A stretch of DNA of 64,000 nucleotides from Apostichopus japonicus (lineage: Eukaryota; Echinodermata; Holothuroidea; Aspidochirotida; Stichopodidae), in assembly GCF_037975245.1 (NCBI RefSeq), contig NC_092568.1:6296501-6360500 (forward strand). Reading direction: 5' to 3'. This document shows, one piece after another, positions 16,591 to 49,700 of the stretch. The notes under the pieces are model-generated. The model ran no database searches and was not told where the DNA came from. It worked only from the letters and a program-made list of their open reading frames with translations. A program made the translations under genes and the position numbers. Each line of letters starts with the position of its first letter. The stretch's first letter is position 1.

Positions 16591-16766
16591 TTACACTTTT
16601 GGAGTGGTATTGTGAGTAGATGACCGAAGAGATGAAGTTTTGGTCATTCTTGGTTGAGGGATGGACCCACCAGATGGTTTCCTGGTTACATCTGCTGAAG
16701 AACTCTTCCTGGTGGACTCCAGGGTTCCCCCTGAAACCCTACGAGGCTGTAATGGACTCTTCTTGT
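16591..16766 (-). CDS. PPP4R4: PPP4R4 last coding exon
   Basis: Acceptor TTTGCAG; it encodes DKKSPLQPRRVSGGTLESTR and ends TTPKV then TAA at 16591-16593. The TAA is embedded in GTGTAAGTG, which also looks like a donor (GT at 16594-16593), so either this is the true C-terminus or a further exon exists downstream. The Ser/Arg/Lys-rich composition agrees with the tail of the family. Confidence 0.7.
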
Positions 16767-19700
16767 CTGCAAAGCAAATCAACCGAATCATTGATACAAA
16801 CTTGATTAGAAAATGCTAATTATGATGGTCAGATGTGTTCTTACTCCCCAGAACATGGCCTGTCTGTTCTTTTACCTCTGAGAAATTATGAAATATAATC
16901 AAAGTGAGAGACATTCTCTGCTGTCAAAGGCAACTGTTTGTTTTTTCCATCATGTAACAATAGGAACTAAGTGAGATAATTGCCTTATCATAGGTAGCTG
17001 CATGTCCTCTCCATAGGTAACATTTGATATAATTGACTTATCATAAGAAACTGCATTCATGTTCATTATCTACTAAGTGTGGTAACTGATTTATGAGTGA
17101 AATTCCCTGTAGGTCGGGTCCATAATATATCTGTTAGGTAATGAGTCAGGTAACTGACTTACCATGTGTAACATCCCTGGTCATATATAACTGTATGTCC
17201 TGTCTATAATCTGTTAGGTAATAAGTCAGGTAACTGACTTACCATGTGTGACATCCCTGGTCATATATAACTGTATGTCCTATCTATAATCTGTTAGGTA
17301 ATAAGTCAGATAACTGACTAATACCATGTGTGACATCCCTGGTCATATATAACTGTATGTCCTGTGTATAATATGTTAGGTCATAAGTCAGGTAACTGAC
17401 TTACCATATGTGACATCACTGGTCATATATAACTGTCTGTCCTGTTTATAATATGTTAGGTATTAAGTCAGGTAACTGACTTACCATGTGTGACATCCCT
17501 GGTCATATATAACTGTATGTCCTGTTTATAATATGTTAGGTAATAAGTCAGGTAACTGACTTACCATGTGTGACATCCCTGGTCATATATAACTGTATGT
17601 CCTGTTTATAATATGTTAGGTAATAAGTCAGGTAACTGACTTACCATGTGTGACATCCCTGGTCATATATAACTGTATGTCCTGTTTATAATATGTTAGG
17701 TAATAAGTCAGGTAACTGACTTACCATGTGTAACATCCCTGGTCATATATAACTGTATGTCCTGTCTATAATATGTTAGGTAATAAGTCAGGTAACTGAC
17801 TTACCATGTGTGACATCCCTGGTCATATATAACTGTATGTCCTGTTTATAATATGTTAGGTAATAAGTCAGGTAACTGACTTACCATGTGTAACATCCCT
17901 GGTCATATATAACTGTATGTCCTGTCTATAATATGTTAGGTAATAAGTCAGGTAACTGACTTACCATGTGTAACATCCCTGGTCATATATAACTGTATGT
18001 CCTGTCTATAATATGTTAGGTAATAAGTCAGGTAACTGACTTACCATGTGTAACATCCCTGGTCATATATAACTGTATGTCCTGTCTATAATATGTTAGG
18101 TAATAAGTCAGGTAACTGACTTACCATGTGTGACATCACTGGTCATATAAATGTATGTCCTGTTTATAATATGTTAGGTAATAAGTCAGGTAACTGACTT
18201 ACCATGTGTGACATCCCTGGTCATATAAATGTATGTCCTGTTTATAATATGTTAGGTAATAAGTCAGGTAACTGACTTACCATGTGTAACATCCCTGGTC
18301 ATATAAATGTATGTCCTGTTTATAATATGTTAGGTAATAAGTCAGGTAACTGACTTACCATGTGTAACATCCCTGGTCATATATAACTGTATGTCCTGTG
18401 TATAATCTGTTAGGTAATGAGTCAGGTAACTGACTTACCATGTGTGACATCCCTGGTCATATATAACTGTATGTCCTGTCTATAATATGTTAGGTCATAA
18501 GTCAGGTAACTGACTTACCATGTGTGACATCCCTGGTCATATATAACTGTATGTCCTGTCTATAATATGTTAGGTTATAAGTCAGTTAACTGACTTACCA
18601 TGTGTGACATCCCTGGTCATATATAACTGTATGTCCTCTCTATAATCTGTGAGGTAAATAAGTCAGGTAACTGACTTACCATGTGTGACATCCCTGGTCA
18701 TATATAACTGTATGTCCTGTATATAATATGTTAGGTCATAAGTCAGGTAACTGACTTACCATGTGTGACATTCCCTGCTGATGCTCTTCTTACTTCAGTG
18801 CTGGATGGACTGGAAGTCTCTTTCTTCTTTAACCTACAACAAATAGAATGTGTTGGTCAATTAGTGCTGGCATGTACATAAATGAAGGACAAGCTCATGC
18901 CACCTGAAAGAGTATTAGATTTACCTCCTTACACATGGTAATCTCTTGGTACCAATACAATTAAAGTTATGTAATCAGTTAAGTTTGGTTTGAGTTTCCA
19001 ATACTGATTCATAGCACCTATTAATAGCAATATTGTAGATATTGTGCTGGAATGGAATTAAATACATGCAAGATGCTAACAGAAAGAAACATATTTGAAT
19101 GAGGGTTTTTGCTTCATGTGCAAACAAGAAAGTGATGTAATGCATAATGAGAAGATGAGAACCTGTCTGTGGTGGCTTGCGGTGAATATCTCATAGAAAC
19201 AGCAGCGAGTAAGCCATCTGAACCTGCTCGTCTTCTGAATACAATCATTGTGAAATGAGATGGAGAAGAAAGAGGCAGAGAGATGAAGCTTAAAAGGCAG
19301 ATGAGATGGTGAGATGAAAAAAAATGAGTTAGAAGTGTGTATAGGGTGCTGCATGCAGTGGTATATAGGTGTGCAGGTAATATATCAGTAATGATATTAA
19401 AGGCATGTAAACTATAAACATGATATAGATACAGTGCACTAACAGCAAGCAATAACATCCAATATTGTACTCATAGTGAGGCAGTCTTTACATTATCGTA
19501 CTCATAGTGAGGCAGTCCTTACATTATTGTACTCATGTTGAGGCAGTCTTTACAATATTGTACTCATAGTGAGGCAGTCTTTACATTGCTGTAGTCATAG
19601 TGAGGCAGTCTTTACAATATTGTACTCATAGTGAGGCAGTCTTTACATTGCTGTACTCATAGTGAGGCAGTCTTTACATTATTGTACTCATAGTGAGGCA

Positions 19701-22700
19701 GTCTTTACATTATTGTACTCATAGTGAGGGAGTCTTTACATTATTGCACTAATGGTGAAGAAGTCTCTACATTACTGTACTCATGGTGCGGCAGTCTTTG
19801 CTCTAACTACTGGCGACTGAGTTAATGCAAGCATGTACATTAAGAAAAAGACAAAAATGTGATTAAAGTCTTTAAGTAAACATCCTATAGTTCTGTACAC
19901 ATTTAAGATGATGTTAATCTTATTGTGTATTAATGCTTGCAAGATTAGGGCAGTGTATATTGTCATTTAATAATCTTTATGAATTTGTTTCCGACTTATA
20001 TATATCATACTAAATTCACTAACACTATGCTTAATATGATTCTGCAGTATGGATATGAATTATGAGTGAGAATGAAATGGATGCAGGTGAACAAACAGCA
20101 CTTACCATAACTGTAATCAATAAGCAAGCCAATACATACACTTGATGAATTGAACATATCTCAAGGATTACCTCTCATCCCTGCAACATCTATCCTGCCT
20201 CTACCTCCCCCCCCACCCACCTCTGCTCACCTCACACATTACCATCATAAACATTGAATGTTTAGTCATATTTAATTACTTGCAGATGTGCTCTGTTTGA
20301 TGTATTTGATGAGGTCCTTACCTGATGGCCGATGGTTTGTTGTTATTTGTTTCTAATGGTGACTTCTTACCAGCAGAGCTGTTTGCTTTGGATGGTATTC
20401 TAGTTGGTGTGGTAGCGTTGGAATGAGAATCATTCAGGTGGCTGCTCTCAGGTTTCTTTGATTTCATGGATTTACTAGCGGCTTGGAAAACAAATGAAAT
20501 GATTTTACAGTCAATTCCCTCAGGAATGATAGGTTCTTGAGCATAAGGCAGCAGTGATTTTGATAACATGATAAAAGTGAAATGAAGAAGTGAAAAGATC
20601 ATGCACACTACATCAACCTGTAAAGCAGTACATGAAGATAATCATACTGAATCAGAATGTGTATGAGGAAGACATATTGCAAATAGTCACATAATCCAGG
20701 AGACTGATCAGAAAAGATCCAGCTGGAATGCCAGCATTTATATCGTTTATCACACCCCAAAGAGTGTACCATAGGGTGTACAAATAACCCTGGTCAATGG
20801 TAACTTGTCACACCTACACACCAAAGTGTACACAATTCAATCAATCTCTCCTGGAGCACCACAGTGCACCACAATCACATGTCCGCCGGGTGACTTCCCA
20901 TAGGGTGCAGCCACAAACCGGCGAACGCAACTATATTTACAAGTTACCTCGCAAGTACCCATTTATACACCTGGGTGAAGAGAGGCAATGGAGATAAAGT
21001 GCCTTGCCCAAGGACACAATGGAATGATCTGGCCAGGACTCGAACCTGTAATCCTTAGATCACAAGTCCACTGCCTTAACCACAACGCCATATGGTTGAA
21101 TATATGTGTAACTGAAGAACCTTTAGGCCAGTCTATGCCACGAATATCCATAATCACTGCTGCAGATTTGTTCAATATCTCATGTGAAAATAAGAAAACT
21201 GCATTTTAGTTGCAAGCATCCAAGACAAGATGCAAAGTCTTGTAAAATAATATTAACTTAGATAATATATTCAAATAATACTTAAGAAGTTTGCTAAGTT
21301 TGATGGGCCAAAAATGGGTGCTACTCCTTCCATAGGTGATACTAGTCAAAGTCAGCATTATCAGTGGGTGTTGTTGGAGGGAGGGAGTTGGCAGTGTGGT
21401 GGTGGGAGGGGACACAGTTGGAGAGGGTGTGTGCTATTTTGGCAGTGGGAGGGAGAAAGTTGGAGAGGGTGTGTGCTACTTTGGCAGTGGGAGGGAGACA
21501 GTTGGAGAGGGTGCGTGCTATTTTGGCAGTGAGAGGGAAAAGGTTGGAGAGGGTGTGTGATACTTTGGCAGTGGGAGGGAGACAGTTGGAGAGGGTGTGT
21601 GCTATTTTGGCAGTGGGAGGGAGAAAGATGGAGAGGGTGTGTGCTATTTTAGCAGTGAGAGGGGGACAGTTGGAGAGGGTGTGTGCTATTTTGACAGTGG
21701 GAGGGAGACAGTTGGAGAGGGTGTGTGCTATTTTGACAGTGAGAGGGAAAAGGTTGGAGAGGGTGTGTGCTACTTTGGCAGTAGGAGGGAGACAGTTGGA
21801 GAGGGTGTGTGCTATTTTGGCAGTGGGAGGGGGACAGTTGGAGAGGGTGTGTGCTATTTTGACAGTGGGAGGGAGACAGTTGGAGAGGGTGTGTGCTATT
21901 TTGAGAGTGGGAGGGAGACAGTTGGAGAGGGTGTGTGCTATTTTGGCAGTGGGAGGGAGACAGTTGGAGAGGGTGTGTGCTATTTTGGCAGTGGGAGGGA
22001 GACAGTTGGAGAGGGCGTGTGCTATTTTGGCAGTGGGAGGGAGAAAGATGGAGAGGGTGTGTGCTACTTTGGCAGTGGGAGGGAGAAAGATGGAGAGGGT
22101 GTGTGCTATTTTAGCAGTGAGAGGGGGACAGTTGGATAGGGTGTGTGCTATTTTGGCAGTGGGAGGGAGAAAGATGGAGAGGGTGTGTGCTACTTTGGCA
22201 GTGGGAGGGGGACAGTTGGAGAGGGGGTGTGCTATTACTTTCAGTAGGTGATACATACCTAGAGCTAAAAGCAGTGTATGTGGAGTGAGAGGAGGACAGT
22301 TGGAGGGTACGCTCTCTCTTCCATTACATGAGTGGGAATAAGGGAAGGGAGAGGCAGTTGGAGAGGGGGGTGTTTATTCTTCCAGAAGCTGATACCTCTG
22401 TTTTGGGGGTGGAGGGGTGGGGGGGGAGGTGCTATTTCTTCCAGTACATAATGCTTACCTCTATTAGCCGTGTGACTTGGAGGGCCAGTTGGAGAGGCGC
22501 TGGTTTTTCTTCCAGTAGATGATACAGCCTTTAGTCGACTGGCTATTGAACACAACACAAAACAGTTTTGTATTAAATAAACAATATCATTGATTACTAA
22601 ATGATAGTATATGCCATGTAAAATCTACATCTGGTGCTAAATAGCCTTTTAAGCCCCAAAAAACAAAAAAACAAAAAACAACACAAAAAAAGTGGTATAA

Positions 22701-25700
22701 GTAAGATGCTACATTACCAGTGGAATAATTTCAATAAATACAATAATAGACATTTCTGTACACATTATACTGCACTCTTCAATGAAACATGCAATGTTAT
22801 GAATTACACTAACCTTTCCTTGTTGTGTTACTTGTTGTTGAGCTTGCTGATCCAATAGTTCTCTCCATCTTGTCTGTCTTAGTGTCTGTTCTCCGCCTCT
22901 CAGATGAAGTAGACTTTGCTGATGATGGTACAGGGTTGGCCGTTCTTTCCTTTTCCTTCTCCTCTGCCTGGAGGAGTGACCTCTCCTCCTCCTCCTTCTT
23001 CTGATCCAGGAAATCTTCTTCAAAGTACTGTTTAGCTGTCAGCTAAAATCATTTATGTATACAGGAATATGCAGTTAGGAGTATACAAGTAAGCTTTATG
23101 ATCACATGTGACCTCAAACAAATTAAGACATAGGAATATTTTTGCATTACTGCATCATCGCCTTAGAAACTTGCGTTAGAAAATAAATCATCTTCTTTGC
23201 ACATAAAAATATCTAAAGGACTGTTTAACCAATTAAAGCTAACCGTGGAAAGAACTAGAAACAGTTTGGAATTTGTAGACATCTTTTATAGCCATAGCTT
23301 TTCCTTCACAACATAGTTTGGTATGGTATTTCCTTATGAAGAGAAAGTAACTGAAGTAACTCGCTAGAATAATGACAAAGAACTGCATAGAATGCCTGGA
23401 TGATGCTATCTATGGTTAACCTTTAGGAGGGTGGTGGGTGGTATCTGGGGAACATAATGGGTTTTATTAAAGGATGGTACAGGTGGACAGCCTGGGCTTG
23501 CATTGAGAATCACTGGAGATCATCCTAATCTCAACATCATAATTTATCAGACATTAATGATACTCTATGATATGACTGACTTGATGCTGCCAAACTCACA
23601 AACTTATAAGACCAAATCAAAGCACAACAGGACTGTTTCACAGACAGATTACAAATAACCAAAAGGTGTTTCAAACTAGCCTTACTATAAACAAAAATTA
23701 TGCGATCAGTTTAAAATGTTACAAGAAAAATTTCACCATTAACTTACGGATTGAACAGCAACTTGGACTTTATCCATGTCACAAGCCGCCTGCAAATTGA
23801 GAAAATATAAACAAATTTTTGTCTATGCTGTCATTTACAACATGTACTCATACAGGTGTTACACCTTTAAACTTTTGTCTCCAATTCAGAACATCCATGT
23901 GATTATATAAGGTTTAAGTTAGAGCTGTTAGTGCTATGATGGTAAATAATGATAATATATCCTTGGCACACACATAAAACAGACCAGTAATGAAGATATG
24001 TATTGAGATGCTTCAATCTGATCAAACAACAAACATCATGAGATGGTAAACTAACTGGAAAGGCTGACTTATCATAAATATTTTCCATTATTAGTATTTC
24101 TCTCACTTTAAGAATTCCTGATACCAGCATTTCTACAGTTTTGAAAACTTTGTTACACTTACTGCAACGGACACATAACCCTGATAAAATCAAGCTCACA
24201 AATGATAAACATCCCTAGATGTAAATAACAAACATGGCAGAGGAAAAGAGAAAGTGGATAGATCAGTGGTAGGAATAGGAGGGTAGGTACCAATCAGGTG
24301 ACAAAGAAAGGGCCAAGATGGGGATGGTACCTGTCTTATTGGGGAATGGTACAGACAAATTATCTATTGGTGTTACCTGTCTTACTTGGGGATGGTACAG
24401 ACAAATTACCTATTGGTGTTACAGTCTTATTGGGGGATGGTACACACAAATTATCTTTTGGTGTTACCTGTCTTACTGGGGGATGGTACAGACAAATTAT
24501 CTACAGTGTGTTACCTGTCTTATTGGGGGATGGTACACACGTTATTGTTTGTTGGGGGATGGTACACACATATTATCTATTGGGTGTTACCTGTCTTATT
24601 GGGGGATGGTACACACATATTATCTATTGGTGTTACCTGTCTTACTGGGGGATGGTACAGACATATTATCTACAGTGTGTTACCTGTCTTATTGGGGGAT
24701 GGTACACACGTTGGTGTTACCTGTCTTATTGGGGGATGGTACAGACATATTATCTGTTGGTGTTACCTGTCTTATTGGGGGATGGTACACACACATTATC
24801 TATTGGTGTTACCTGTATTATTGGGGAATGGTACACACGTTGGTGTTACCTGTCTTACTGGGGGATGGTACACACATATTATCTGTTGGTGTTACCTGTA
24901 TTATTGGGGGATGGAACACACATATTATCTACAGTGTGTTACCTGTCTTATTGGGGGATGGTACACACGTTGGTGTTACCTGTCTTATTGGGGGATGGTA
25001 CACACATATTATCTGTTGGTGTTACCTGTATTATTGGGGGATGGTACACACGTTGGTGTTACCTGTATTATTGGGGGATGGTACACACATATTATCTATT
25101 GGTGTTACCTGTCTTACTGGGGAATGGTACACACAAATTATCTACAGTGTGTTACCTGTCTTATTGGGGGATGGTACACACGTTGGTGTTACCTGTCTTA
25201 TTGGGGGATGGTACACACATATTATCTACTGTGTGTTACCTGTCTTATTAGGGGATGGTACACACATATTATCTGTTGGTGTTACCTGTCTTATTGGGGG
25301 ATGGTACAGACATATTATCTACTGTGTGTTACCTGTCTTATTGGGGGATGGTACAGACATATTATCTATTGTTGTGAAGTGTCTTATTAGGGGATGGTAC
25401 ACACATATTATCTATTGGGTGTTACCTGTATTATTGGGGGATGGTACAGACATATTATCATTTGGTGTTACCTGTCTTATTGGGGGATGGTACACATGTA
25501 TTATCTACTGTGTGTTACCTGTCTTATTGGGGGATGGTACACACGTTGGTGTTACCTGTCTTACTGGGGGATGGTACAGACAAATTATCTACAGTTTGTT
25601 ACCTGTCTTATTGGGGGATGGTACACACGTTATCGTTTGTTGGGGATGGTACACACATATTACCTATTGGGTGTTACCTGTCTTATTGGGGGATGGTACA

Positions 25701-28700
25701 CACATATTATCTATTGGTGTTACCTGTCTTACTGGGGATGGTACAGACAAATTATCTACAGTGTGTTACCTGTCTTATTGGGGGATGCTACAGACATATT
25801 ATCTATTGTTGTGAAGTGTCTTATTAGGGGATGGTACACACATATTATCTATTGGGTGTTACCTGTATTATTGGGGGATGGTACAGACATATTATCATTT
25901 GGTGTTACCTGTCTTATTGGGGGATGGTACACATGTATTATCTACTGTGTGTTACCTGTCTTATTGGGGGATGGTACACACGTTGGTGTTACCTGTCTTA
26001 CTGGGGGATGGTACAGACAAATTATCTACAGTTTGTTACCTGTCTTATTGGGGGATGGTACACACGTTATCGTTTGTTGGGGATGGTACACACATATTAC
26101 CTATTGGGTGTTACCTGTCTTATTGGGGGATGGTACACACATATTATCTATTGGTGTTACCTGTCTTACTGGGGATGGTACAGACAAATTATCTACAGTG
26201 TGTTACCTGTCTTATTGGGGGATGGTACACACGTTGGTGTTACCTGTCTTATTGGGGGATGGTACACACATATTATCTGTTGGTGTTACCTGTATTATTG
26301 GGGGATGGTACAGACATATTATCTGTTGGTGTTACCTGTCTTACTGGGGATGGTACAGACGAATTATCTACAGTGTGTTACCTGTCTTATTGAGGGATGG
26401 TACACACGTTGGTGTTACCTGTCTTATTGGGGGATGGTACACACATATTATCTATTGTTGTTAAGTGTCTTATTGGGGGATGGTACAGACATATTATCAT
26501 TTGGTGTTACCTGTCTTATTGGGGGGTGGTACACACATATTATCTACTGTGTGTTACCTGTCTTATTGGGGGATGGTACACACGTATTATCTATTGGGTG
26601 TTACCTGTCTTATTGGGGGATGGTACAGACATATTATCTATTGGTGTTACCTGTCTTATTGGGGGATGGTACACACGTATTATCTATTGGTGTTACCTGT
26701 CTTATTGGGGGATGGTACACATGTATTATATATTGGTGTTACCTGTCTTATTGGGGGATGGTACACACAAATTATCTATTGGTGTTACCTGTCTTACTGG
26801 GGGATGGTACAGACATATTATCTGTTGGTGTTACCTGTCTTACTGGGGGGTGGTACACACATATTATCTACTGTGTGTTACCTGTCTTATTGGGGGATGG
26901 TACACACGTATTATCTATTGGGTGTTACCTGTCTTATTGCTGCTGTCACATCTCTATCTTTCTCCATCACCAGTAGCTTCCTAACCACCAGGTCTAGCTG
27001 CTGCAACAGTTGTCTGTCTTTAGGCAGCTTTAACTGAGTTTTCAACATTGGCAGGAGAGTGCAGCAACGTAACCTGTCCAAGAATAATAGATTATTCAAA
27101 TTATTAAAACCCTGCAGGTCTTTGCTTCATCTTTTCTTGGTCATTAAACATTTGGATAAAAATATGAGAAGAATACAATTTAAGACAATTTACTTGAAAC
27201 TTCCAACGAACTGGGCAAGGCAGACTAAGATCTCATTACAGATATTAAACTCCACCTGATGATGGTACAATACTGATCAGTCATGATAATTCTCACCTTA
27301 CATTTGCTATGGGATCTTCTGCTAGTTCCAACACTTTCTCAAAGAAATGTTCATTAAAGAAAGACTTTGAAAACACCTCCATGAGATAAACGCAGACATC
27401 TAAGAATAAACGGCGATAACGGCTGCTCTGGTGGTTCCGACATTCTGTGTTGAAATCAAAACATAAGGAGCTACTACAGTAGATGTTCCCAAGAGTGATA
27501 TCTATTGTGTCTTGATATTGAGATACCAAGACTGATGCAACCATAGCAAACTCTCAAATCATATGATGGATATATTGATCTATATATATCTATATTTATA
27601 TATGTGGATCTATTGATCCATATATATCTATATATGATGAATCTGTTACCCAGTTACACTTGTACGCATTACAAATAATATCCAATGTAATGCCACATCT
27701 TTAGTATGTATTAACTAAATGAAGCCTGTAGGTTTGAATACACTATATCAGTGTTCAAACACACAGCACCATCACAGCCTAACTTAACAAAGTAATGATT
27801 TCCATCACAATAGAATAAAACGATAACTTATTATGTATCATCATGCATTAGTGAGGCAGTATCTGCTGTTTTAATTTCTTTAACCTATTAACTTAACACC
27901 ATGACATGATAAATAACTGTATGATGCAAAAAGAATATGATAAACGAATGAGTAAAATAATATATTAAACATTTCTTCTGACTCTAGGATGTCATTTGTT
28001 TGTTTCATGAAGGAACATCAACCGCTGACATTTTCAAACTTGAAGGAAGAAAACACTTTGGTGTCTAAGGCAGGAATTCATTATTATCATTTCTAACAAT
28101 TTGTTTTAATCTATATTCTTTACTATTCTATAAGCAACTCATGGACCAAATGCTGATAAGGAAATTATCAGCCCCCAAAATCACAATTGACCATCTTTGA
28201 ATATTCTTTTCTAACTACAAACAATAGAACAGCCAGTATAATAATAGATACGAGCAATTTTCACATTAACGCTGTGCAATGGCTAAAATTACTTAATTTT
28301 CCATTGTGATCATATTGACTCACCCTCTATTAACTGGCTACAGAGTTCTTGTCTCTGTTCCTGTTTCCTGTTATACTTAATGAATACACAAATAGTTCGA
28401 CAAGCAGCAAGGTGAACTGGCAATGGTTTCTACAGGGAAGAAAACAAACAAGCAGGTCACATGACAACAGTAATAGCATTGACAGCATGAGACTCACAGT
28501 CTTCATATTCCAGTTAATTAATAGTTAATTTATAGAACAATATGGTAGAGCCGAACTATGTTGCATCAACAAAACAAGACAATACAGTAAGCAGGATGCA
28601 ACAATGTCTAAAGCTTATTTCTGTGATACAGAAATGGTGTGACAGTGGTGTTTACATAGTATCATAAGCTTTCAGTTTCCTTTCTTGCAGTGTTGTGTTT

Positions 28701-31700
28701 ATAAACTTGACATCAGACACATCCAGACTGTCCAATCAAACCACCGTTAATGCATAGGTTCCCTGTCATTGACAAGTAGTCAAGGATGACAGGTATATAT
28801 TTAGCAAAGATACTCACATGTGAGGTAATACAATGAAATACGACTGGAACAAACTTGTGGTAAATCTGGTCACTTGTGAGGCATTTAGCCAGGCAGCTAA
28901 ATTTATCAAGGATATCTGAATGTAACCTCCAATTACGGGATGCAGCAGCTCGACTCTCAGCAGATAACAGAGCAGGAATAACATCAGAGAAGCAGTTATC
29001 CTGCTGGAGAAACAAAATCCAAACATCATAAGGTAGTGTGCAACCCTTATATTTTGATACCAAACATGAAGTAACACTTACCCTGCTGAAGGTACCAACC
29101 ACTCCAATCATAAGGTAGTGTTCAACCCTCATATCTTGATACCAAACATGAGTAACACTTACCCTGCTGAAGGTACCAACCACTTCAATCATAAAGTAGT
29201 GTTCAACCCTTATATATTCTAATTTTATCCTGCTGAAGAGACATAATCTATCTGTTCTTCAGTCTTCTTGCTGCAAACAGTTGATGATTACACAATCATT
29301 TGACCACTGTGTTTGTTTCTATGTTTGCTTATCTGTATTTTTTTTTCCCTGATTGTTATGAAAAAGATAGTGTATTTAGATATCAGGTTTCGAAATCTTA
29401 TGGTGACTTATAGCATCCTTAAATGTAAACCAACAAGCAATAAGATAATCACACACACTGCATGTAGAAAGTCATATATCAATAACCTTAGAGCACACAA
29501 GCAATAAGATAATCACACACACTGCATGTAGAAAGTCATATATCAATAACCTTAGAGCACACAAGCAATAAGATAAATCACACACACTGCATGTAGAAAG
29601 TCATATATCAATAACCTTAGAGCACACAAGCAATAAGATAATCACACACACCGCATGTAGAAAGTCATATATCAATAACCTTAGAGCACACAAGCAATAA
29701 GATAATCACACACACTGCATGTAGAAAGTCATATATCAATAACCTTAGAGCACACAAGCAATAAGATAATCACACACACTGCATGTAGAAAGTCATATAT
29801 CAATAACCTTAGAGCACACAAGCAATAAGATAATCACACACACTGCATGTAGAAAGTCATATATCAATAACCTTAGAGCACACAAGCAATAAGATAAATC
29901 ACACACACTGCATGTAGAAAGTCATATATCAATAACCTTAGAGCACACAAGCAATAAGATAATCACACACACTGCATGTAGAAAGTCATATATCAATAAC
30001 CTTAGAGCACACAAGCAATAAGATAAATCACACACACTGCATGTAGAAAGTCATATATCAATAACCTTAGAGCACACAAGCAATAAGATAAATCACACAC
30101 ACTGCATGTAGAAAGTCATATATCAATAACCTTAGAGCACACAAGCAATAAGATAATCACACACACTGCATGTAGAAAGTCATATATCAATAACCTTAGA
30201 GCACACAAGCAATAAGATAAATCACACACACCGCATGTAGAAAGTCATATATCAATAACCTTAGAGCACACAAGCAATAAGATAAATCACACACACCGCA
30301 TGTAGAAAGTCATATATCAATAACCTTAGAGCACACAAGCAATAAGATAAATCACACACACTGCATGTAGAAAGTCATATATCAATAACCTTAGAGCACA
30401 CAAGCAATAAGATAAATCACACACACTGCATGTAGAAAGTCATATATCAATAACCTTAGAGCACACAAGCAATAAGATAAATCACACACACTGCATGTAG
30501 AAAGTCATATATCAATAACCTTAGAGCACACAAGCAATAAGATAATCACACACACTGCATGTAGAAAGTCATATATCAATAACCTTAGAGCACACAAGCA
30601 ATAAGATAATCACACACACTGCATGTAGAAAGTCATATATCAATAACCTTAGAGCACACAAGCAATAAGATAAATCACACACACTGCATGTAGAAAGTCA
30701 TATATCAATAACCTTAGAGCACACAAGCAATAAGATAAATCACACACACCGCATGTAGAAAGTCATATATCAATAACCTTAGAGCACACAAGCAATAAGA
30801 TAAATCACACACACTGCATGTAGAAAGTCATATATCAATAACCTTAGAGCACACAAGCAATAAGATAAATCACACACACTGCATGTAGAAAGTCATATAT
30901 CAATAACCTTAGAGCACACAAGCAATAAGATAAATCACACACACCGCATGTAGAAAGTCATATATCAATAACCTTAGAGCACACAAGCAATAAGATAAAT
31001 CACACACACTGCATGTAGAAAGTCATATATCAATAACCTTAGAGCACACAAGCAATAAGATAAATCACACACACTGCATGTAGAAAGTCATATATCAATA
31101 ACCTTAGAGCACACAAGCAATAAGATAATCACACACACTGCATGTAGAAAGTCATATATCAATAACCTTAGAGCACACAAGCAATAAGATAAATCACACA
31201 CACCGCATGTAGAAAGTCATATATCAATAACCTTAGAGCACACAAGCAATAAGATAAATCACACACACTGCATGTAGAAAGTCATATATCAATAACCTTA
31301 GAGCACACAAGCAATAAGATAAATCACACACACTGCATGTAGAAAGTCATATATCAATAACCTTAGAGCACACAAGCAATAAGATAATCACACACACTGC
31401 ATGTAGAAAGTCATATATCAATAACCTTAGAGCACACAAGCAATAAGATAAATCACACACACCGCATGTAGAAAGTCATATATCAATAACCTTAGAGCAC
31501 ACAAGCAATAAGATAATCACACACACTGCATGTAGAAAGTCATATATCAATAACCTTAGAGCACACAAGCAATAAGATAATCACACACACTGCATGTAGA
31601 AAGTCATATATCAATAACCTTAGAGCACACAAGCAATAAGATAATCACACACACTGCATGTAGAAAGTCATATATCAATAACCTTAGAGCACACAAGCAA

Positions 31701-37700: not shown

Positions 37701-40700
37701 TTAAGTCTCTGTGTAATGGATTAAGTCTGTGTGTCATGGATTAAGTCTGTGTAATAGATTAAGTATGTGCAAGGGACAAAATAACCGGGTTCGCATCGCA
37801 ATTTGCTACCCAAGAATGGCCAATTGCGAATCAACTTCAATTTGGCGTCGCAGAAGTTGCGAATCAATATTTTCTCAAGTTATGTCCAGGTTCTGACAAT
37901 TCCCATTGACACAACACGTAATAAGTATATTGTTGTTTAAGCCGAAGCCACACATCTGTCGGTCACTCCCGCCTGACAACAACACCCATGCGCGGCATGC
38001 AGCCTCGACCCTTGCATAGAATCGTTATGACAACAAATAGCTACGTACACACGCGGCATGTTGGCTACGTAATTAACACAGCCAGAATGCAGTGTGTATT
38101 ACACGATAGGTTAGTGTGCTATCCACTACGACGAGTGCCCCAGCTCACATAACATACTGTAGCGAACGTTATATTGTATGTACAGTCAATAGCTCGCTGA
38201 TAAATAACGTTGGGATTCACGTAGTGAGTTAATTGTTTAACATCAAAATGCCGAAACTTTCAACAGTTAAACAGTGGCAGAACAAGTTTGATCCATCCCA
38301 AAAATGGATGAATATCAAGACGGGCGGGGGAGAGGATTTGGTGGCCAAAGTTTCATGCCGACTATGTCAGTTATACGAGCCACAACTGCGATGCCTTCGC
38401 AACTTCAGCAGAAGTTTCATTTTGGGGATTTCGGGGAGTGCTCTAAAAAAGGACAATGTTGCGAAACACACCATGACTGAGCAGCACATTCGGGCTCAAC
38501 AGCTGAAAGAATCACCGAGCACCATCGCTGATGTGTATCGCACAACTCCGATCGGTAATTATAATGTACATTAACGTTATTCTTATAAATACACGTGGTA
38601 GTGATATGTGTTGTAACGATTTGTGAACCACTTATCGCGTGCTTTATCACAAATTATAAATAATAACAAAGAATTGCTGTTAACGCTTAGCGAGACCAAA
38701 TATAATCGTTCGCGAAATTGTGTACAGCATCCGTATATTTTGCAATAATAAAATTTTAGCGCAATACTGTACTTTCGGACGTGATAGAGAATCGCGGTAA
38801 GTAACGAATCAGAATGGTTGATCTATACATGGGCATACACACATGTTTGTAACACTTGATTATGCTACGAAATCTGTGATTGGCTGGTGAAAACAAGATT
38901 CTACAATATTCTATAATATTGACAGGTAAACTGGCACTGCCACGGCAATTCCAAGGTCCAGTAGGCAGTGTATGATAATAACAAAGCTTAGGTACAAAAA
39001 TAGAGCGATTTGATCGTAGTACGAGTAGCGATAGGAATGGATTGTGACATTTCTGTGCACCCCCTCCCCTGGGCCTTAGACCGCACCCCAGTCAAATATC
39101 GTCTTGCTTTGTTTCCGTCATTTCAGGGCAAGTGGAAAATAATCAGGGCAAGTGGATTCTGAGAGCAACTTGCCCTACTGGGCAAGTAGTTTTTAGAGTT
39201 AATGTTGAGCCCTGCCTCCACAATCACATTATCAAATTATCCCTTCGTTCACGTTTTATATTTTTCAGGGAGGGCTTTGTGTGGGGCAGAAGAAGCTGAA
39301 AAAACGAGGGTGTCAAAACTAACTGAGATTGCCTACTTCCTGGCGAAAGAAGAAATAGCCTTCAAGAAATTTCCCGCACATGTTCAACAGGAGATGAGGC
39401 ATGGAGTGAAATTGCGTGGGGCACATTTGAATGAGAAGGGATGCAGAGAATTCACGGAATGCATCAATGATGCGATGGTTGAGGACTTGAAAAATAAGAT
39501 AAAAAACACCGCATTTTACTCTGTTTTAACTGATGGGAGTACAGATAGTGGAATCCTAGAAAAGGAACTCACTTACATATTATTTTTGGATGCTGAAGGA
39601 CAATTAGTTTCAACTTTATTGGGTTTGAACGATGTTGAACATGGTACTGCAGAGGGGTTGAAGAAAGTCTTGGAAGAGACATTTGCCAAGATGGATATGG
39701 GGAACTTCAAAACACACTTGGTGGGTTTGGGGGCAGACGGGGCAAATGTTAATCTTGGTAAGAAGAAAGGCTTGGCTGCCCTTCTAAGGGCTGAAATCCC
39801 ATGGCTTGTCAGTGTACATTGTTTCAATCATAGGCTAGAACTGGCTATGAAGGATGCCCTTGACAAAACATACTACTCTGAAATAACAAACACCTTGATG
39901 TTATTGTTTTATGCCTATAAGAACAGTCCTAAAAGGCTTAGGGAACTGAAGGCCCTTGGAGACATAATGAACGAAGTAGTGAACAAGCCACTGAAAGCCC
40001 ATGGTACCAGATGGGTGCAGCACAAGCTTCAGGCGACAGAAGCGTTATTGAAATCCTACAGTGTAGTTGTAGCACATCTGGAAAACATGGCAAATGATAA
40101 AACTCATGACCAGGCCAAAGCCAAGGGCATCCTTGATAAAGTTAATAACTTCAAGTTTGTGAGTCATTTGCTATATTTCCAGCACCTTCTTCGGCCAATA
40201 TCAAGGTTGTCTGTCACTTGGCAAAAGGAAGTAGTTGAAGCTCCATTAGTGTTGGCAACCTTAAACAATCTCAAGCAAACTCTTGGCAACATGAAAGATC
40301 AGCAAGAATACCCTGGGGAACTGAAGGATATTGCTAGTGCTCAGCAATCTGTAGATGCTGACGACCAGCTACAGAATCCCATAACAGGAGATGCAGAGAA
40401 CGAGCCCCAACAGCCTGTAATGTTCAAAGGGACACAGCTGAAGAAGGTCAAAGTTGGCTTGGGTTATTTTTTGTGACATAGCCAAGAATATGTGGTGGCC
40501 ATAGAGAAAGAGCTTGAGAAAAGGTTTGACTTTGATACCAAAGAAAATGAGGTGTTGAAATCCACAAGGATCCTGGACATTAGGCTGTGGCCAGATGATG
40601 ATCAAAACCTTGGGACATATGGGAATGAAGATATAGCAAATGCAGCAGAGTGTTTCAAAGATCTGTTGACTGTGAACATGGAAGATTTTGACTTAGACAA

Positions 40701-43700
40701 TGTCTTACCTGAGTGGAGGGAACTTAAAATGTTCATCAGGGATAGTGGTATGGCTGTATATCTCACTGATCCTTCCACTATCTGGGCAAAGTGTCATAAG
40801 AACTTTTTCTCCAGATTTCCAACAGTTATGAGAATAATAAATATTTTGAGAGTGTTACCATGGTCAAATGGCATAGTTGAAAGGTGTTTCTCAACAATGA
40901 ACAAAGTGAAAACTGATTGGCAATCTACACTAGGGGCAGACTCTCTTGAGATGCTTGTGAGAATCAAGAAAACTGGACCTCCCTGTGAGTTGTATGATGC
41001 ATGTGATGCAGTGGAGCTGTTTTTTTTCCAAGAAACCAAGAAGGTCAATGCAGCCAGATGAGTGCACTCAGCCTGGACCATCTAAGAAGCACAAGTCTGA
41101 TTGAGAAGAAATTAAATTTAACCCAAATCAGTGAACTTGTGGGTGAAGTATACTTACAGCTCCCTTACCTGCTGCAGTCTGCTAATAGATGGACACCCTA
41201 CGTTACCTACCTGTCTTTTCTCGTTCCCAGCAGGTTTCATAGCTGTCACACTCACATGACCACTCACAAGTAGACATAACTAATTTGTTAAACAGAACAG
41301 TGGGCTGAGTATTAATGAGTAGTGTCACTGTGTGATACTCAGCTGTTGAAAAAAGAATTTCATCTCTGTGTCCTCTTTTAGTAGTGAATTTCCTATAATA
41401 CTAATTTCTAACTCCAATGGCCCAATGTTGACTTTTTAAAATTGCTAACCAAGATGAAGTAATCGCTAATCAATTCCAATTTTGATTGGCAATTACTGCT
41501 AATCAATTTTCTCACACTATTTCGTCCCTTGATGTGTGTAATGGATTAAGTCTGTGTGTAATGGATTAAGTCTGTGTATAATGCTGTAAGTCTGTGTGTC
41601 ATGGTTTAAGTCTGTGTGCCAGCTCTAAAATTCCTTTCTGTAGGCTTCAAACTTACATACAGCAATTCTTTTTTGATTTTAAATGGATTAAGTCTGTGTG
41701 TCATGGATTAAATCTGTGTAATAGATCAAGTCTGTGTGTAATGGACTAAGTCTGTGTGTAATGGATTAAGTCTGTGTGTCATGGATTAAGTCTGTGTGTA
41801 ATGGATTAAGTCTGTGTAATGGATTAAGTCTGTGTAATAGATTAAGTCTATGTGTAATGGATTAGTCTGTGTGTAATGGATTAAGTCTGTGTGTAATGCA
41901 TTAAGTCTGTGTGTAATGGATTAAGTCTGTGTGTAATGGATTAAGTCTGTGTGTCATGGATTAAGTCTGTGTAATAGATTAAGTCTGTGTGCAATGGATT
42001 AAGTCTGTGTGTAATGAATTAAGTCTGTGTGTAATGGATTAAGTCTGTGTGTAATGGATTAAGTCTGTGTGTAATGGATTAAGTCTGTGTGTAATGGATT
42101 AAGTCTGTGTGTAATGCATTAAGTCTGTGTGTCATGGTTTAAGTCTGTGTGCCAGCTCTAAAATTCCTTTCTGTAGGCTGCAACCTAACATTCAGCAATC
42201 CTTTTTTGTTGTTGAATGGATTAAGTCTGTGTGTAATGGATTAAGTCTGTGTGTTATGGATTAAGTCTGTGTGTATGGATTAAGTCTGTGTGTAATGGAT
42301 TAAGTCTGTGTGTAATGGATTAAGCCTGTGTGTAATGGATTAAGTTTGTGTGTCATGGTTTAAGTCTGTGTGTCATGGTTTAAGTCTGTGTGTAATGGAT
42401 TAAGTCTGTGTGTAATGGATTAAGTCTGTGTGTAATGGATTAAGTCTGTGTGTAATGGATTAAGTCTGTGTGTCATGGTTTAAGTCTGTGTGCCAGCTCT
42501 AAAATTCCTTTCCATAGGCTGCGACCTTACATTCAACAATCTTTTTTTGTTTTTCAATGGATTAAGTCTGGTTACCAATATTATATGTTTTTACTAATGT
42601 CTATATCATGAAGGTTGACAGACTGGGTAAGACTATATGACAGGGATCAGTAAGGTTATAAGACACATACAAAGTGCATCTAACTTTATCAATGGGTTTA
42701 TATAGTGGATGGCTAAGTTAATGAAGCAGTAACAATTGCATCAGTTAATTCCATTATTTAATGTTAGTTGTACTGCACTCATTCCAGCTATTAACCTAAT
42801 TGAAGGTCACACAGTAATGATGATGATAGTTGGTTAAAAGGGGTCTCAGTCAATGTGACAATGGCTAATATTACTTCTCACAGTTGTTTGCCAACAGATA
42901 TGTTACAGATTACAGTATACAAAGTACTTTTATTATTGTTTCATTTCCAGGAATAAGTTTTTATCTTCTTCTATTATGAAGAGTTTATGGCCAATCTCTT
43001 TGCTTTACTGATTAATACTGTCAGAGATGAAACTAATGATGCAAAATAAACTAATTCAACAGCATTCTTTCTGTCAGAATCTAGGCAAAATCTCAGTAAT
43101 CCCCTAATGATAGCTGTAAAGTAAAGGGCAATACAGATGGAGCGCCTTTAAATTATTTATAAATGTTGAATTTACCTCATGGAATCCTTTGGCAAGAGAA
43201 ATTCGGACCTGTTCCTCTGGGTCATCGCACAGAGATGCAAAGCTTGAATGAAGTTCTGACTTAAAATTTTTGGCACCCGCAAACAATACCATGCACTGGA
43301 AAGAATAGAAAAGATTACACAGTAACGACTACTCACTGGTAATTAAAGGCTGTCTGGCTACACTGTCAAAGATATATAACTTACTGGTAAGTTAAAGGTT
43401 GTCTGGCTACACTGTCAAAGATATATATGTAAACTTATAGGATAGGTTACACACAGGTAAGTTAAAGGTAAGGCTGACTGGTTCTAAACTTTCAATGATA
43501 TATGTAACATTAGAGGATAGGTAACACACTGGTTAGTTAAAGGCTGACTGGTTCTAAGCTTTAAGATATATGTAACATTACAGGATAGGTAACTCACTGG
43601 TAAGTTAAAGGCTGACTGGTTCTAAACTTTCAATGATATATGTAACATTACAGGATAGGTAACTCACTGGTAAGTTAAAGGCTGACTGGTTCTAAACTTT

Positions 43701-46700
43701 CAATGATATATGTAACATTAGAGGATAGGTAACACACTGGTTAGTTAAAGGCTGACTGGTTCTAAGCTTTAAGATATATGTAACATTACAGGATAGATAA
43801 CTCACTGGTAAGTTAAAGGCTGACTGGTTCTAAACTTTCAATGATATATGTAACATTACAGGATAGGTAACTCACTGGTAAGTTAAAGGCTGACTGGTTC
43901 TAAACTTTCAATGATATATGTAACATTACAGGATAGGTAACTCACAGGTTAGTTAAAGGCTGACTGGTTCTTTAAGATACATGTAACATTACAGGATAGG
44001 TAACTCACTGGTAAGTTAAAGGTTGACTGGTTCTAAACTTTCAATGATATATGTAACATTACAGGATAGGTAACACACTGGTTAGTTAAAGGCTGACTGG
44101 TTATAAACTTTAAGATATATGTAACATTACAGGATAGGTAACTCACTGGTAAGTTAAAGGCTGACTGGTTCTAAACTTTCAATGATATATGTAACATTAC
44201 AGGATAGGTAACTCACTGGTAAGTTAAAGGCTGACTGGTTCTAAACTTTCAATGATATAACATTACAGGATAGGTAACACACTGGTTAGTTAAAGGCTGA
44301 CTGGTTCTAAACTTTAAGATATATGTAACATTACAGGATAGGTAACTCACTGGTTAGTTAAAGGCTGACAAGTTCTAAACTTTCAATGATGTATGTAACA
44401 TTACAGGATAGGTAACTCACTGGTAAGTTAAAGGCTGACTGGTTCTAAACTTTAAATGATTGTAACATTACAGGATAGGTAACTCACTGGTAAGTTAAAG
44501 GCTGACTGGTCCTTAACTTTCAATGATATATGTAACATTACAGGATAGGTAACTCACTGGTAAGTTAAAGGCTGACTGGTTCTAAACTTTAAATGATTGT
44601 AACATTACAGGATAGGTAACTCACTGGTAAGATAAAGGCTGACTGGTCCTTAACTTTAAGATATATGTAACATTAAAGGATAGGTAACTCACTGGTAAGT
44701 TAAAGGCTGACTGGTTCTAAACTTTAAATGATTGTAACATTACAGGATAGGTAACTCACTGGTAAGTTAAAGGCTGATTGGTTCTAAACTTTAAATGATT
44801 GTAACATTACAGGATAGGTAACTCACTGGTTAGTTAAAGGCTGACTGGTTCTAAACTTTAAATGATTGTAACATTACAGGATAGGTAACTCACTGGTAAG
44901 TTAAAGGCTGACTGTTTCTTACTTTAAGATATATGTAACATTGTAGGATAGGTAACTCACTGGTAAGTTAAAGGCTGACTGTTTCTAACTTTAAGACATA
45001 TGTAACATTGTAGGATAGGTAACTCACTGGTAAGTTAAAGGCTGACTGGTGTCTGCACTCTCTCTGACGCTCTTCTTCCTTGTACAGTGCTTGTATTCTG
45101 GGACTCTGAAAACACAATAATAGATTGATATTCAACTCTGCATTTTAAACAGATTTACCCAAATAAGTCTGACATCTGAGATGAATGCACAATGCATGTG
45201 TTGTATTTCCAAACTGTGTTTGAACTAACACAACCATGTTAATTCTAGATGATGTGTGAGCGTGAGCATTTTCGGTTGATATGACACAAGGTACAGAGAA
45301 ACAATATGAATGCCTTGTATTTTTTTCTTCCAAATTAATTAAAATATATCAGGTGCTGACATGAAAGGTAAACCAGGAATAACAGATATGAAATGATACT
45401 CCAAGTGTGATGACTTGTACACTAAAGCAGAAGGGGTTATAGGAGCGAGCCCAAGACAGTCGTGGTTAACACCTAGGGAGTGTCTCATGCTTACTTCAGA
45501 CAATCCTGGATGTGACCAGCTTGTTATAGTTGTGCACATAGGATATAGGACATAGGAAATAAACTTTGAATTCACACCAAGCAGTACTTGCCAATACAAT
45601 TATTTTTGGAGGTCCATCCTAATAGTAAATGGAACCATTTTCATGATTCCTTTTCTGTTTCTTTTGAATATTTTCATTACATCATACGCATTGCAATGAC
45701 ACCAAACACATTGCATGCAAATGAAAACAAACAAGCATCGATACTAACAGTAAATTCAGGAAGTTTTCTTGTTTAAGAAACTGATATTATTAAGCTGCAT
45801 GACTACCAGTGTTCTATGCTCCACAGTTTACAAATGTAACATAGCAAAGCTGTCACTAACATGTAACTCAGAACTCTCTATGCCCTTGCTGTCTGAGATA
45901 CATCCTATACAAGCACATCAACATTAGCACTGACCAAAAAAAACAAAGGCTAAAGTATTTTCTTTCTGAAGCACAAATTACACTTCTTTCATGTATTGTG
46001 TAGATCATAGTCATGTATCTCAAAATGATGACATGGAAGTTATGTCAAAATATTTTCAGTTTTGAGTCCAAATGGTGCACTTTATCACACAATGGAGCCA
46101 ATCTTCAAAACTTTATGGAGTATGTACAGCACTGCCCAAAGACAATGTAAACATTGAACCTTTGCCCTGTGGAAATGGTTGTCATTGTTAAAACTACTTT
46201 ACTTCTAAACTGTGAACTGCATACGGTCACCCAAAACTCTTTGATAATATTTTGCCATGAATGTACTACTAATGAAAGATGATTATGACTGTTCATTTTG
46301 GAAATGTAACTATGCTAATGTGATAGTTGTAGACATTTTCATGAAACCTATGCACTACTTTGGTTGTTTAAAGTTTGTATGTTTCATGCCAATGGAAACA
46401 CTTGCTGTGCTGTGAATGGATGAGTATGCAGATAACATGGCCTTGACAATATAGATATATATATAGGCTGTCTGATGCTTTACACTCACAACTATTCTGT
46501 AATTTAAAAGAAGTTCACCTTTATTTCACTAATTCGATATGAAACTACCCTTGTGAAGGAAATGAATTGCCTTGTTAACACAAAGTTTAACACTTTTCAA
46601 ACTGAAGGGAGAATGCATGCTTAAGAGCTACCCATGACACTGTCAACTGCAAATCAATATGGACTTGTCAAGTTACAATGTCATCATAACAAGTAATTAT

Positions 46701-49700
46701 ATGGGTATGTAAACACTCAACCGTGAATCAAACATCAATTTAATGTTAATCAAACAGTTATACCAGATGGGTGAATAAGATAAGTGCAGTGAATATATCT
46801 AAACAAACAGCAATGGAAGGAGTACTTTATGGACAAACTTCAAGGTACTTCATAACTGATTGTTAAATTTCAGGTCTCATACAGGCCAAACAATTTATAA
46901 ATAAACATTCAACATCCCTCTGTAGAAATTTCAGCAGTTATTTAGAGGATCAAAAAGGAAAATATTGTTTAAAATTCTCTGATTAATTAAGTAGATCTAA
47001 CTGCTCAAAGTGCAACACAGGAAATTATAAATTGAAGTTAAGTCCACAAAGATAGTCTGTTTCACAGCACACTATATATACAATACCTCTTCGGTTATAT
47101 CAAGGCTCTCAGATGAAGAGCTCACTGCTGTTGGTGGTTCAGGCTTGTAGTAGGAAAAAGAATTTGTTTGATTGAACTTGTTCAGTAATCAAGCTATGCA
47201 CAGGATTGAGAAAATAACATAATACAAGGTCACAGATTACAACATCACTAAAACCCTTATTTCTTGTATGACACCTATAGCAAGTTATCACGTCTCAAGG
47301 GTCACTAAAACCCTTATTTCTTGTATGACACCTATAGCAAGTTATCACGTCTCAAGGGTCACTAAAACCCTTATTTCTTGTATGACACCTATAGCAAGTT
47401 ATCACGTTTCAAGGGTAACAAGTCTTTAAGATACGAACATTGACAAGTTTCAGTAATTGTAAAGTAATTGAGGGTTGTAACAACCACTCAACTGCCAGGT
47501 AGATATCTAGCGTTTGACTGTCCATTAGGAAGCACCAAGGTAAAACAAAGCAAATCGACTTGTGTGTATGCTGCCTCAAAATATCTTGATGTCTAAGATG
47601 AGATATGGTTAGAATACTACCTTAGATATAGAATTGATGTTATTACAGCAGTGTCAATGAGGTGACTATATCCTGATATAGTTGATTGGTTTGTCAACAT
47701 AGCTCTCAAGAGCTTCCTTTAATCAACAGTAACTCATGAATATGCATACCATGCAGTCATACTACGGCCTGCAGCAGTACTCAGTACAGTCTCTCTGTAT
47801 GTTAGCAATTTTCCCCTTCCTTCATAATCAACATTAACAGACTATTTCAAGTTTGGAATAACCAACCTGGAAAGTCAAGAATAACAACGTCACTGTTATT
47901 CCTTCCTTAGCTTATCTTATTTGTGGTAAAACTGATGTTAATGTTTATGTGGCTAGTATAGCTATGTGTTACCACTACTAACCAATGAGTGTCCAGAGTC
48001 AGGTTAGGTTTCAGGGAGAGTCGGTATTCCTTCCTTATAGTTATTCATAAACTTAAGATGAGTAACTACAGGTAAACACTCACCAGAGTCAGGTTAGGTT
48101 TCAGGGAGAGTCGGTATTCCTTCCTTATAGTTATTCATAAACTTAAGATGAATTACTAAAAGTAAACACTCACCATAGCCTCTTCCGGAGTAGGTTTTTC
48201 ATGAAGACCAAATATGCAAAGATCCCGGTAGTAATTTAATGACCAAATCTTTTGTTCTTCTGTCAAATTGACTTTAAAATGAAATAGAAAACAAACTAAA
48301 TGGAAGCTGAATTATACAAAGAGTTTTAAACTATTCCCATTTGTAGTTATTTAGGTTTGTTGTAAAACGTTGTTCATGTTTCTCTGGAAGAGTACACCTT
48401 TCTTGAGAAAACTGACTTGTAGCAATGACACAGCATATTAGTCATTAAAACAGGATCATGGATTTTAGTATTGAGGAGTGAAGTAGATCTTGTTATGAAT
48501 AATCTTATGTACAAAGGTAACAAAACCTTAATATCAACTACTGTATCACTGATAGAAATACTCCAGCAGCAAGAACTATCATGTTTATGACTTGTGTTAT
48601 TCACTACATGAAATAAGTAACAAACTTAATGACATTCATTTTCTACTACCATATTAAAGAGACATGATTTGAGTTCCACTCAAAATTAGGGAGAGTGATA
48701 AACCACAAATCAGGTCAAGGCAGGGGTGAGTTATATCCATCAAAACATTAAGACTACCTATTCTTTTTATGAAAACCAATGAGAGTCCATGAACAAACAC
48801 CTAAGAGTCTGCATGAATGGGTACTTTCATATCATCTTAACATGCAGCTAGGCTTACCTGAGAGTCCATGACACAGCTTCCCAAACTGCTTGGCTATGGA
48901 TGGAAGGGTGACGTCTTTATTTTGCATTGCATTGTCACAGTATTTACAAACTAAAGGAATGATGGTTTGATTACAGGTTTCTGTGGGAAAGAGTAGAAAC
49001 AAATAATGCATCATCACTACAGAATTTGTCAATAATCACCATTATTACTCAATGCTTTGTGCGTCACACAAACTAGGAACTAAGGAGGGAACTAAGGAAC
49101 ATCTAGCCCATCAACAACAGAAAATAGACAAAAGAAGGTATTTATCACTCAATAACACCAACTGAAAGAAAAAAAGATCTTTCATTAATCAGCAACAATA
49201 TTAATGCAGACTAAGCACATGAACTACAATACTCTACATTACTGCTACAATCATGCGTACACATAATAACATTTACTACCACAGACAAAACTATAACCAA
49301 CAAAAACAAAATAAATACATGTGTAAAAGTAAGAGGGCCTGACGTTTCAGTCCTAGCAGGATCTTCTTCAGAGGCTGAATGACAAGTAACAGAAGGGATA
49401 ATACACACACAGAATACAGACAGCTAAAATAGATACATGATAAATAACAGCTAGTGGACAAAGAGAATAGCAAGGAATCGGTCCAATAGAACAAGTAACT
49501 ACATAGAGCCCTTGACATGAAATATGTCCTGACGCATAGGAGGAGGAATAATCAAGTCTGCATAAGGAAAGATAAGCTGATTGTGAGTGGCATATATACA
49601 GCAGTAGGGAGAGCAGCATGGTAGGTAGTTAAATGATCAGAGGCAGATTATACCTGCTGGGATGTATTCCACTAAACCAGGAGGAATGAAACAGGATAAA

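Follow-up and report, generated by a model that had tools for sequence, protein, structure and literature searches.

Arrays at splice donors of a HEAT-repeat gene

The window analyzed here, a 64,000-nucleotide stretch of the Apostichopus japonicus genome (contig NC_092568.1, positions 6,296,501 to 6,360,500), carries on its reverse strand a gene for a HEAT-repeat protein resembling PPP4R4, in which tandem arrays repeat the last bases of predicted coding exons together with the adjoining splice donor (5' splice site). Nine of the exons, when joined, encode 359 residues without a stop, and the protein has a Pfam HEAT match (E 1.7e-5) and resembles the PP2A scaffold subunit (E 9e-8). The first-pass annotation called the gene PPP4R4; both matches fit that name, which is treated here as putative. 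Because the phases of the exons from 48980 down to 18760, as read from predicted splice sites, are consistent along the chain, the donors in this part of the gene are credible as predictions. This gene model is incomplete: the phases of the exons at 59191 and 48980 do not fit together, so that at least one exon between them is absent from it, and the donor at 16671 and both ends of the gene are provisional. The gene, its exons at issue, and the arrays called with Tandem Repeats Finder (TRF) are as follows.

16671..61295, minus strand: HEAT-repeat gene, PPP4R4-like; partial model of 17 exons with Pfam HEAT and PP2A scaffold matches
18760..18833, minus strand: predicted coding exon, donor ATG/GTAAGT at its low end
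17132..18777, minus strand: 80-bp array, 20.6 copies (TRF), reaching 18 bases across the donor into exon 18760 (12 when judged by identity to the copies)
22459..22542, minus strand: predicted coding exon that resembles the intron just downstream (local alignment)
22237..22438, minus strand: degenerate copy of exon 22459 in the intron (local alignment)
21402..22236, minus strand: 42-bp array, 19.9 copies (TRF), beginning 222 bp into the intron and not at the donor
26929..27073, minus strand: predicted coding exon, donor CAG/GTAACA
24552..26939, minus strand: 46-bp array, 53 copies (TRF), spanning the donor of exon 26929 by 11 bases; an extra piece lies at 24328-24540
45028..45105, minus strand: predicted coding exon, donor CCA/GTGAGT
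43331..45050, minus strand: array of about 70 bp, about 24 copies (TRF; 43377-45050 plus 43331-43427), spanning the donor of exon 45028 by 23 bases
48174..48271, minus strand: predicted coding exon, donor ATG/GTGAGT
47993..48175, minus strand: 90-bp unit in two copies (TRF), beginning 2 bases inside exon 48174 and repeating its donor

According to the unit listings of the four arrays at exons 18760, 26929, 45028, and 48174, the exon end and the donor recur from unit to unit and run on into the intron. The exon share of the repeat, judged by identity to the copies, is 12, 11, 23, and 2 bases, respectively. The donor GT was kept in 19/20 (18760), 52/52 (26929), and 24/24 (45028) recognized copies, figures that are conditional on the copies having been found by their likeness to the donor core. 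The array at exon 45028 takes up almost all of the intron, stopping 35 bases short of the next exon.

Five donors of this gene had been proposed as starting points of arrays or duplications. TRF places four of them there, including the two-copy duplication that repeats the donor of exon 48174. The fifth, a 42-bp array assigned to the donor of exon 22459, starts well inside the intron, and the donor is followed instead by sequence resembling the exon. Forty-seven bases of exon 22459 align to the intron at 22237-22438 with a score of 49, whereas 300 shuffles never exceeded 23 (25 for the whole stretch), and on this alignment the segment is a decayed duplicate of the exon. The view that chance was an unlikely cause agrees with the count: 4 of the 16 arrays of at least 100 bp in the gene start at one of its 16 donors, compared to 0.41 expected under random placement (p = 0.00064), but this value is flattering because the gene was chosen for having arrays at its donors.

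Far from any donor, an intron of the same gene holds a 65-bp array at 29433-31936 (about 39 copies, 98% matches; TRF). Transposase-like reading frames within 38233-41061, which we take to be of the hAT type (Pfam gave just a sub-threshold DUF4371 match), are flanked by two arrays of one 20-bp unit at 37082-37769 and 41533-42492 (TRF). Inverted 11-base ends with one mismatch lie near 37772 and 41519; no clean target duplication was present in that scan. The arrangement across 37082-42492 suggests that an element may have inserted into a single array of the 20-bp unit. An Rfam search of the whole window gave no matches.

Donors and acceptors elsewhere in the genome

A family search, blind to repeats, supplied exons encoding myosin, kinesin, dynein, and RhoGAP domains. 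For the motor families it gave 298 matches; the 12 dynein rows at the end of the list (E 0.0017 and above) were excluded before sampling. Sample 1 consisted of 150 exons drawn at random from 286 motor exons, at loci that contained 154 exons; sample 2 consisted of 83 exons (all 53 RhoGAP rows and 30 motor rows), with the zones to be compared fixed beforehand. One of the 237 pooled exons had no called donor, which left 236 predicted donors in 97 gene clusters. Arrays of at least 100 bp were called by TRF, and donors were predicted by a simple score, not read from RNA.

Arrays spanned 10 of the 236 donors compared to 2 of the 236 acceptors (p = 0.018). The 5' edges of arrays were concentrated at exon ends, with 10 in the last 45 exon bases versus 21 in intron bases 0 to 380, a 4.0-fold difference in density (p = 0.0009); against intron bases 25 to 200 (13 to 14 edges) the difference was 2.8- to 3.0-fold (p = 0.010 to 0.014). 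As scored, array starts per kilobase numbered 0.94 in the last 45 exon bases and 0 from -200 to -46 on the exon side, and 0.51 in bases 0 to 24, 0 in bases 25 to 39, and 0.47, 0.21, 0, and 0.26 in bases 40 to 120, 120 to 200, 200 to 300, and 300 to 380 of the intron. When starts between -40 and +20 were compared to those between 40 and 380, sample 1 gave 6 versus 10 (153 donors; p = 0.025), sample 2 gave 5 versus 7 in its preset zones (83 donors; p = 0.025 as scored), and the pooled samples gave 11 versus 17, a 3.6-fold excess (p = 0.0017). The pooled excess persisted under a stricter donor rule (p = 0.006) and when the ends of domain matches were used instead of donors (p = 0.008). At acceptors, the pooled samples gave 2 starts versus 20, with no excess. 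The first-pass annotation had proposed a process amplifying DNA at exon/intron junctions. The sampled genes support such a process beyond the window gene for predicted donors, with array starts about 3 to 4 times denser at exon ends than in the intron; "junctions" is too general a term, because acceptors show no excess.

Spanned donors were also clustered by gene. Three pairs of spanned donors fell in the same gene, compared to 0.38 expected (p = 0.009), and arrays in intron interiors gave 2 pairs versus 1.15 expected (p = 0.31), that is, no clustering. In one RhoGAP gene, the consecutive exons L148 and L149 (at about 529,100 and 530,900 of C18) each have a donor-spanning array of their own, with a 60-bp and a 65-bp unit, respectively. 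The window gene exceeds the rate of the sampled genes, 4 of its 16 donors being spanned (p = 0.007). GTRAG was present in 8 of the 10 spanned donors versus 93 of the 226 others (p = 0.02). In this sample, array starts are about 3 to 4 times more frequent over the final 45 bases of exons than in the nearby intron, and the affected donors cluster in certain genes; the statistics are modest.

Inspection by eye of individual cases revealed a kinesin exon whose end, coding for REGSNINK, is duplicated together with the donor, and a dynein exon whose end is present in about 10 copies. Because the exon ends that are repeated fall within conserved matches to protein domains (kinesin, dynein, RhoGAP), the exon is the source of the units. 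Both acceptor-spanning arrays also include exon sequence: one in a myosin gene (L058) consists of three copies of 124 bp with 69 exon bases, and one in a kinesin gene (L084) of five copies of 42 bp with 9 exon bases. In both, the last copy of the acceptor would have to be used for the domain sequence to persist.

Several points weigh against an excess at exon ends. The numbers are small and the donors are predicted. Between seeing sample 1 and reading sample 2, we changed the donor caller; under the revised version, L028 lost the position at a donor that it had with the first, and L007, which had appeared as spanning in the first run through an error of the caller, starts 15 bases past its donor. 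The match at L138 had its donor mis-set (by eye), and the edge at L149 lies at -41, 1 base beyond the preset zone. Sample 2 under the stricter donor rule gave 4 versus 8 (p = 0.096; 0.016 after the zone was later widened to -45 to +25), and with domain-match ends the single samples gave p = 0.066 and 0.046. Spanned donors, at 4.2%, are also fewer than intron positions 200 to 600 bp from an exon that lie under any array (about 7 to 11% in sample 1).

Scans of the whole genome for repeated donor words fall on the same side. Exact triplets of CAGGTAAGT were found in 61 scan windows versus 48 for the reversed word, and pairs in 97 versus 98, in 22 places versus 34, both of which include dispersed elements. 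Triplets of AGGTRAGT showed a weak excess (1,046 versus 760 reversed); in the first ~33 Mb, among the matches listed, they occupied 11 places versus 5, which was not significant. Counts of this kind are easily shifted by a small number of long arrays and by certain dispersed elements, and so have little power. The scans add no clear support for a genome-wide donor bias, and they speak against a very large effect.

The same scans turned up a dispersed sequence beginning CAGGTAAGTAACAATGAC, in which a second CAGGTAAGT follows 45 to 55 bp on. It was present in at least 7 places among the matches listed, including C4:8233640, C16:41678390, and C17:15200875, with a variant at C20:1750541.

Properties of the units and competing explanations

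Thirteen units were compared with respect to features that might explain their origin. Minisatellites associated with R-loops or G-quadruplexes are defined by a consistently G-rich sense strand. The sign of the sense-strand GC skew differed among the units (range, -0.28 to +0.56), and so the 13 units lack this property, R-loops being judged here from sequence alone; the first-pass suggestion of an R-loop-linked cause finds no support. Folding into hairpins was likewise rejected as a common drive, with z-scores of the units ranging from -2.0 to +1.8 against mononucleotide shuffles. Despite this lack of a common folding signal, the 80-bp unit at exon 18760 holds, by eye, an inverted repeat. It adjoins the donor (GTAAGTCAG ... 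CTGACTTA) and places donor-like words on both strands of the 17132-18777 array.

A duplication precise to the splice site, for example through priming from the free end of the exon, was rejected because edges are spread over 2 to 41 exon bases. This scatter argues against the junction itself as the breakpoint and against splicing chemistry as the determinant of the edges. Uniform placement of units over the junction was also rejected (mean exon share, 0.35; probability that all exon parts are ≤42 bases in the 13 cases, 0.008). The exon parts are shorter than uniform placement predicts, which selection against long exon copies would equally explain. Use of the second donor would introduce a stop in 9 of the 13 cases, which argues from sequence that the authentic first donor is mainly used. 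Pointing the other way, the second donor would keep the frame without a stop in 3 of the 13 (L087, L012, and L025). The median predicted strength of array donors equals that of the real donor in the nine arrays scored.

The anatomy of the arrays, with the exon as the source of the repeated ends, is that of junction-spanning minisatellites, or "mirages." We favor, with modest confidence, the explanation that they are tandem duplicates produced by a mild bias toward exon ends in some genes, combined with selective tolerance, and that no dedicated machinery is involved. A short segment consisting of the last 2 to 41 exon bases, the donor, and the start of the intron would first have been copied in tandem, and expansion would then have raised the copy number, which ranges from 2 to about 50. 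The duplicates lie downstream of the authentic donor and, as long as the exon-proximal donor stays in use, would leave with the intron. In some genes the duplications themselves may arise somewhat more readily at exon ends or donors.

Tolerance could also act without any bias. Duplications would then arise everywhere, those spanning a donor surviving by means of the upstream donor and those spanning acceptors or exons being purged. This is possible, and we give it real but lesser weight. It accounts for the preponderance of donors over acceptors, for the lack of long-array starts deeper in exons (-200 to -46), and for donor-word scans with little or no genome-wide excess over reversed words. 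However, tolerance could at most bring exon ends up to the intron rate, yet the last 45 exon bases have 2.8 to 4.0 times that rate, and spanned donors cluster by gene and interior arrays do not. Thus, tolerance explains why donors are affected more than acceptors, and the excess over the intron background together with the gene clustering suggests a modest mutational bias at exon ends. Retention of the copies by selection, as spare or regulatory donors, appears improbable. The GT is retained in recognized copies (all 52 at exon 26929, for instance), and mean mismatch over nine arrays was lower at the donor (0.017) than at intron positions 7 to 14 (0.084). However, the intron mean is driven by the array at 26929 alone (0.399, with indels as read), the copies were found by their donor core, and units of an array evolve together, so that copies are not independent; the stops that would follow from second-donor use in most cases also argue against useful donors.

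The presence of a donor in every unit could alternatively reflect insertion of a mobile element or introner carrying one, and the genome does contain one dispersed sequence that has two donor-like words. Introners are families of one mobile sequence that generate many introns. The 13 units do not form such a family: 2 of 78 pairs exceeded the 99% level of shuffled sequences, and the units are therefore taken as showing no spread of an element between sites. They contain the coding ends of their own host exons, which identifies the exon as the source and makes an inserted element very improbable. An assembly artefact is scarcely credible. Tandem arrays are hard to assemble, but the units differ among themselves, and the window arrays, at 0.2 to 2.6 kb, are shorter than the usual length of HiFi reads. 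The matching Apostichopus japonicus assembly was built from PacBio HiFi reads (PMC10344927).

Relation to mirages and significance

The name "mirages" comes from amphioxus, where minisatellite-like tandem duplications over exon-intron boundaries have been described in Adh3, the globin genes BflGb6 and BflGb9, TnC, and PGBD5, with units of 10 to 160 bp, many of which carry splice signals, at donors as well as acceptors; length instability and normal splicing were reported (PMC3087553, PMC3902484). The first-pass annotation had pointed to these repeats, and the link is apt, since the published duplications match those found here in an echinoderm host. In keeping with such a host, contig C35 of the genome has COX1 by family search, and the frames behind it, putatively nad4L and cox2 in an order that marks echinoderms, stay open when the echinoderm code is applied. 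In both systems the unit spans the boundary (here at four predicted donors in the window and, in the sampled genes, at 10 of 236 donors and 2 of 236 acceptors), splice signals are present in many of the units (here a GT in 19/20, 52/52, and 24/24 copies, conditional on the search core), and both 5' and 3' boundaries are affected (here with acceptor cases L058 and L084). On these three anatomical points, as predicted from sequence, the echinoderm arrays are mirages in another phylum. Unlike the passages on amphioxus, which give no such count, the present tally over 236 donors and 236 acceptors leans toward donors and toward certain genes. The lean to donors, the zone of starts at exon ends, and the gene clustering are the new parts, and they are provisional.

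A minisatellite that repeats a splice donor, with donors provided by the repeat, is named in the title of a paper; its unit is reportedly 12 bp. The echinoderm units are longer (39 to 90 bp) and carry putative donors, whereas that title reports the donors as provided. In another case, a tandem duplication across an intron-exon boundary that reused the parent splice signals gave rise to a new intron (PMC4974935). There, a single duplication made an intron, whereas here existing introns seem to have been lengthened by arrays. Among the titles and abstract openings listed by searches on junction repeats in a partial library, none reported mirages outside amphioxus.

A bolder proposal is that in this echinoderm the ends of transcribed exons are hot spots of tandem duplication, at which a germline event linked to transcription or splicing, at most about 45 bases before strong donors, would repeatedly found minisatellites in the same genes. 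Introns would then lengthen through repeated copies of their own donors, and a single process shared by deuterostomes would underlie the mirages of both amphioxus and echinoderms. We regard this proposal as speculative and unlikely as a whole.

The arrays constitute a natural experiment in which one exon is followed by up to about 50 near-identical donors, mirrored by the acceptor version. The copy that the splicing machinery chooses, and its error rate, bear on exon definition versus the order of transcription. The gene clustering offers a way into the question of why tandem duplication affects some genes more readily than others. Should the bias prove to be genome-wide, mirages would be a recurrent route of intron growth and change in deuterostomes rather than an oddity of amphioxus.

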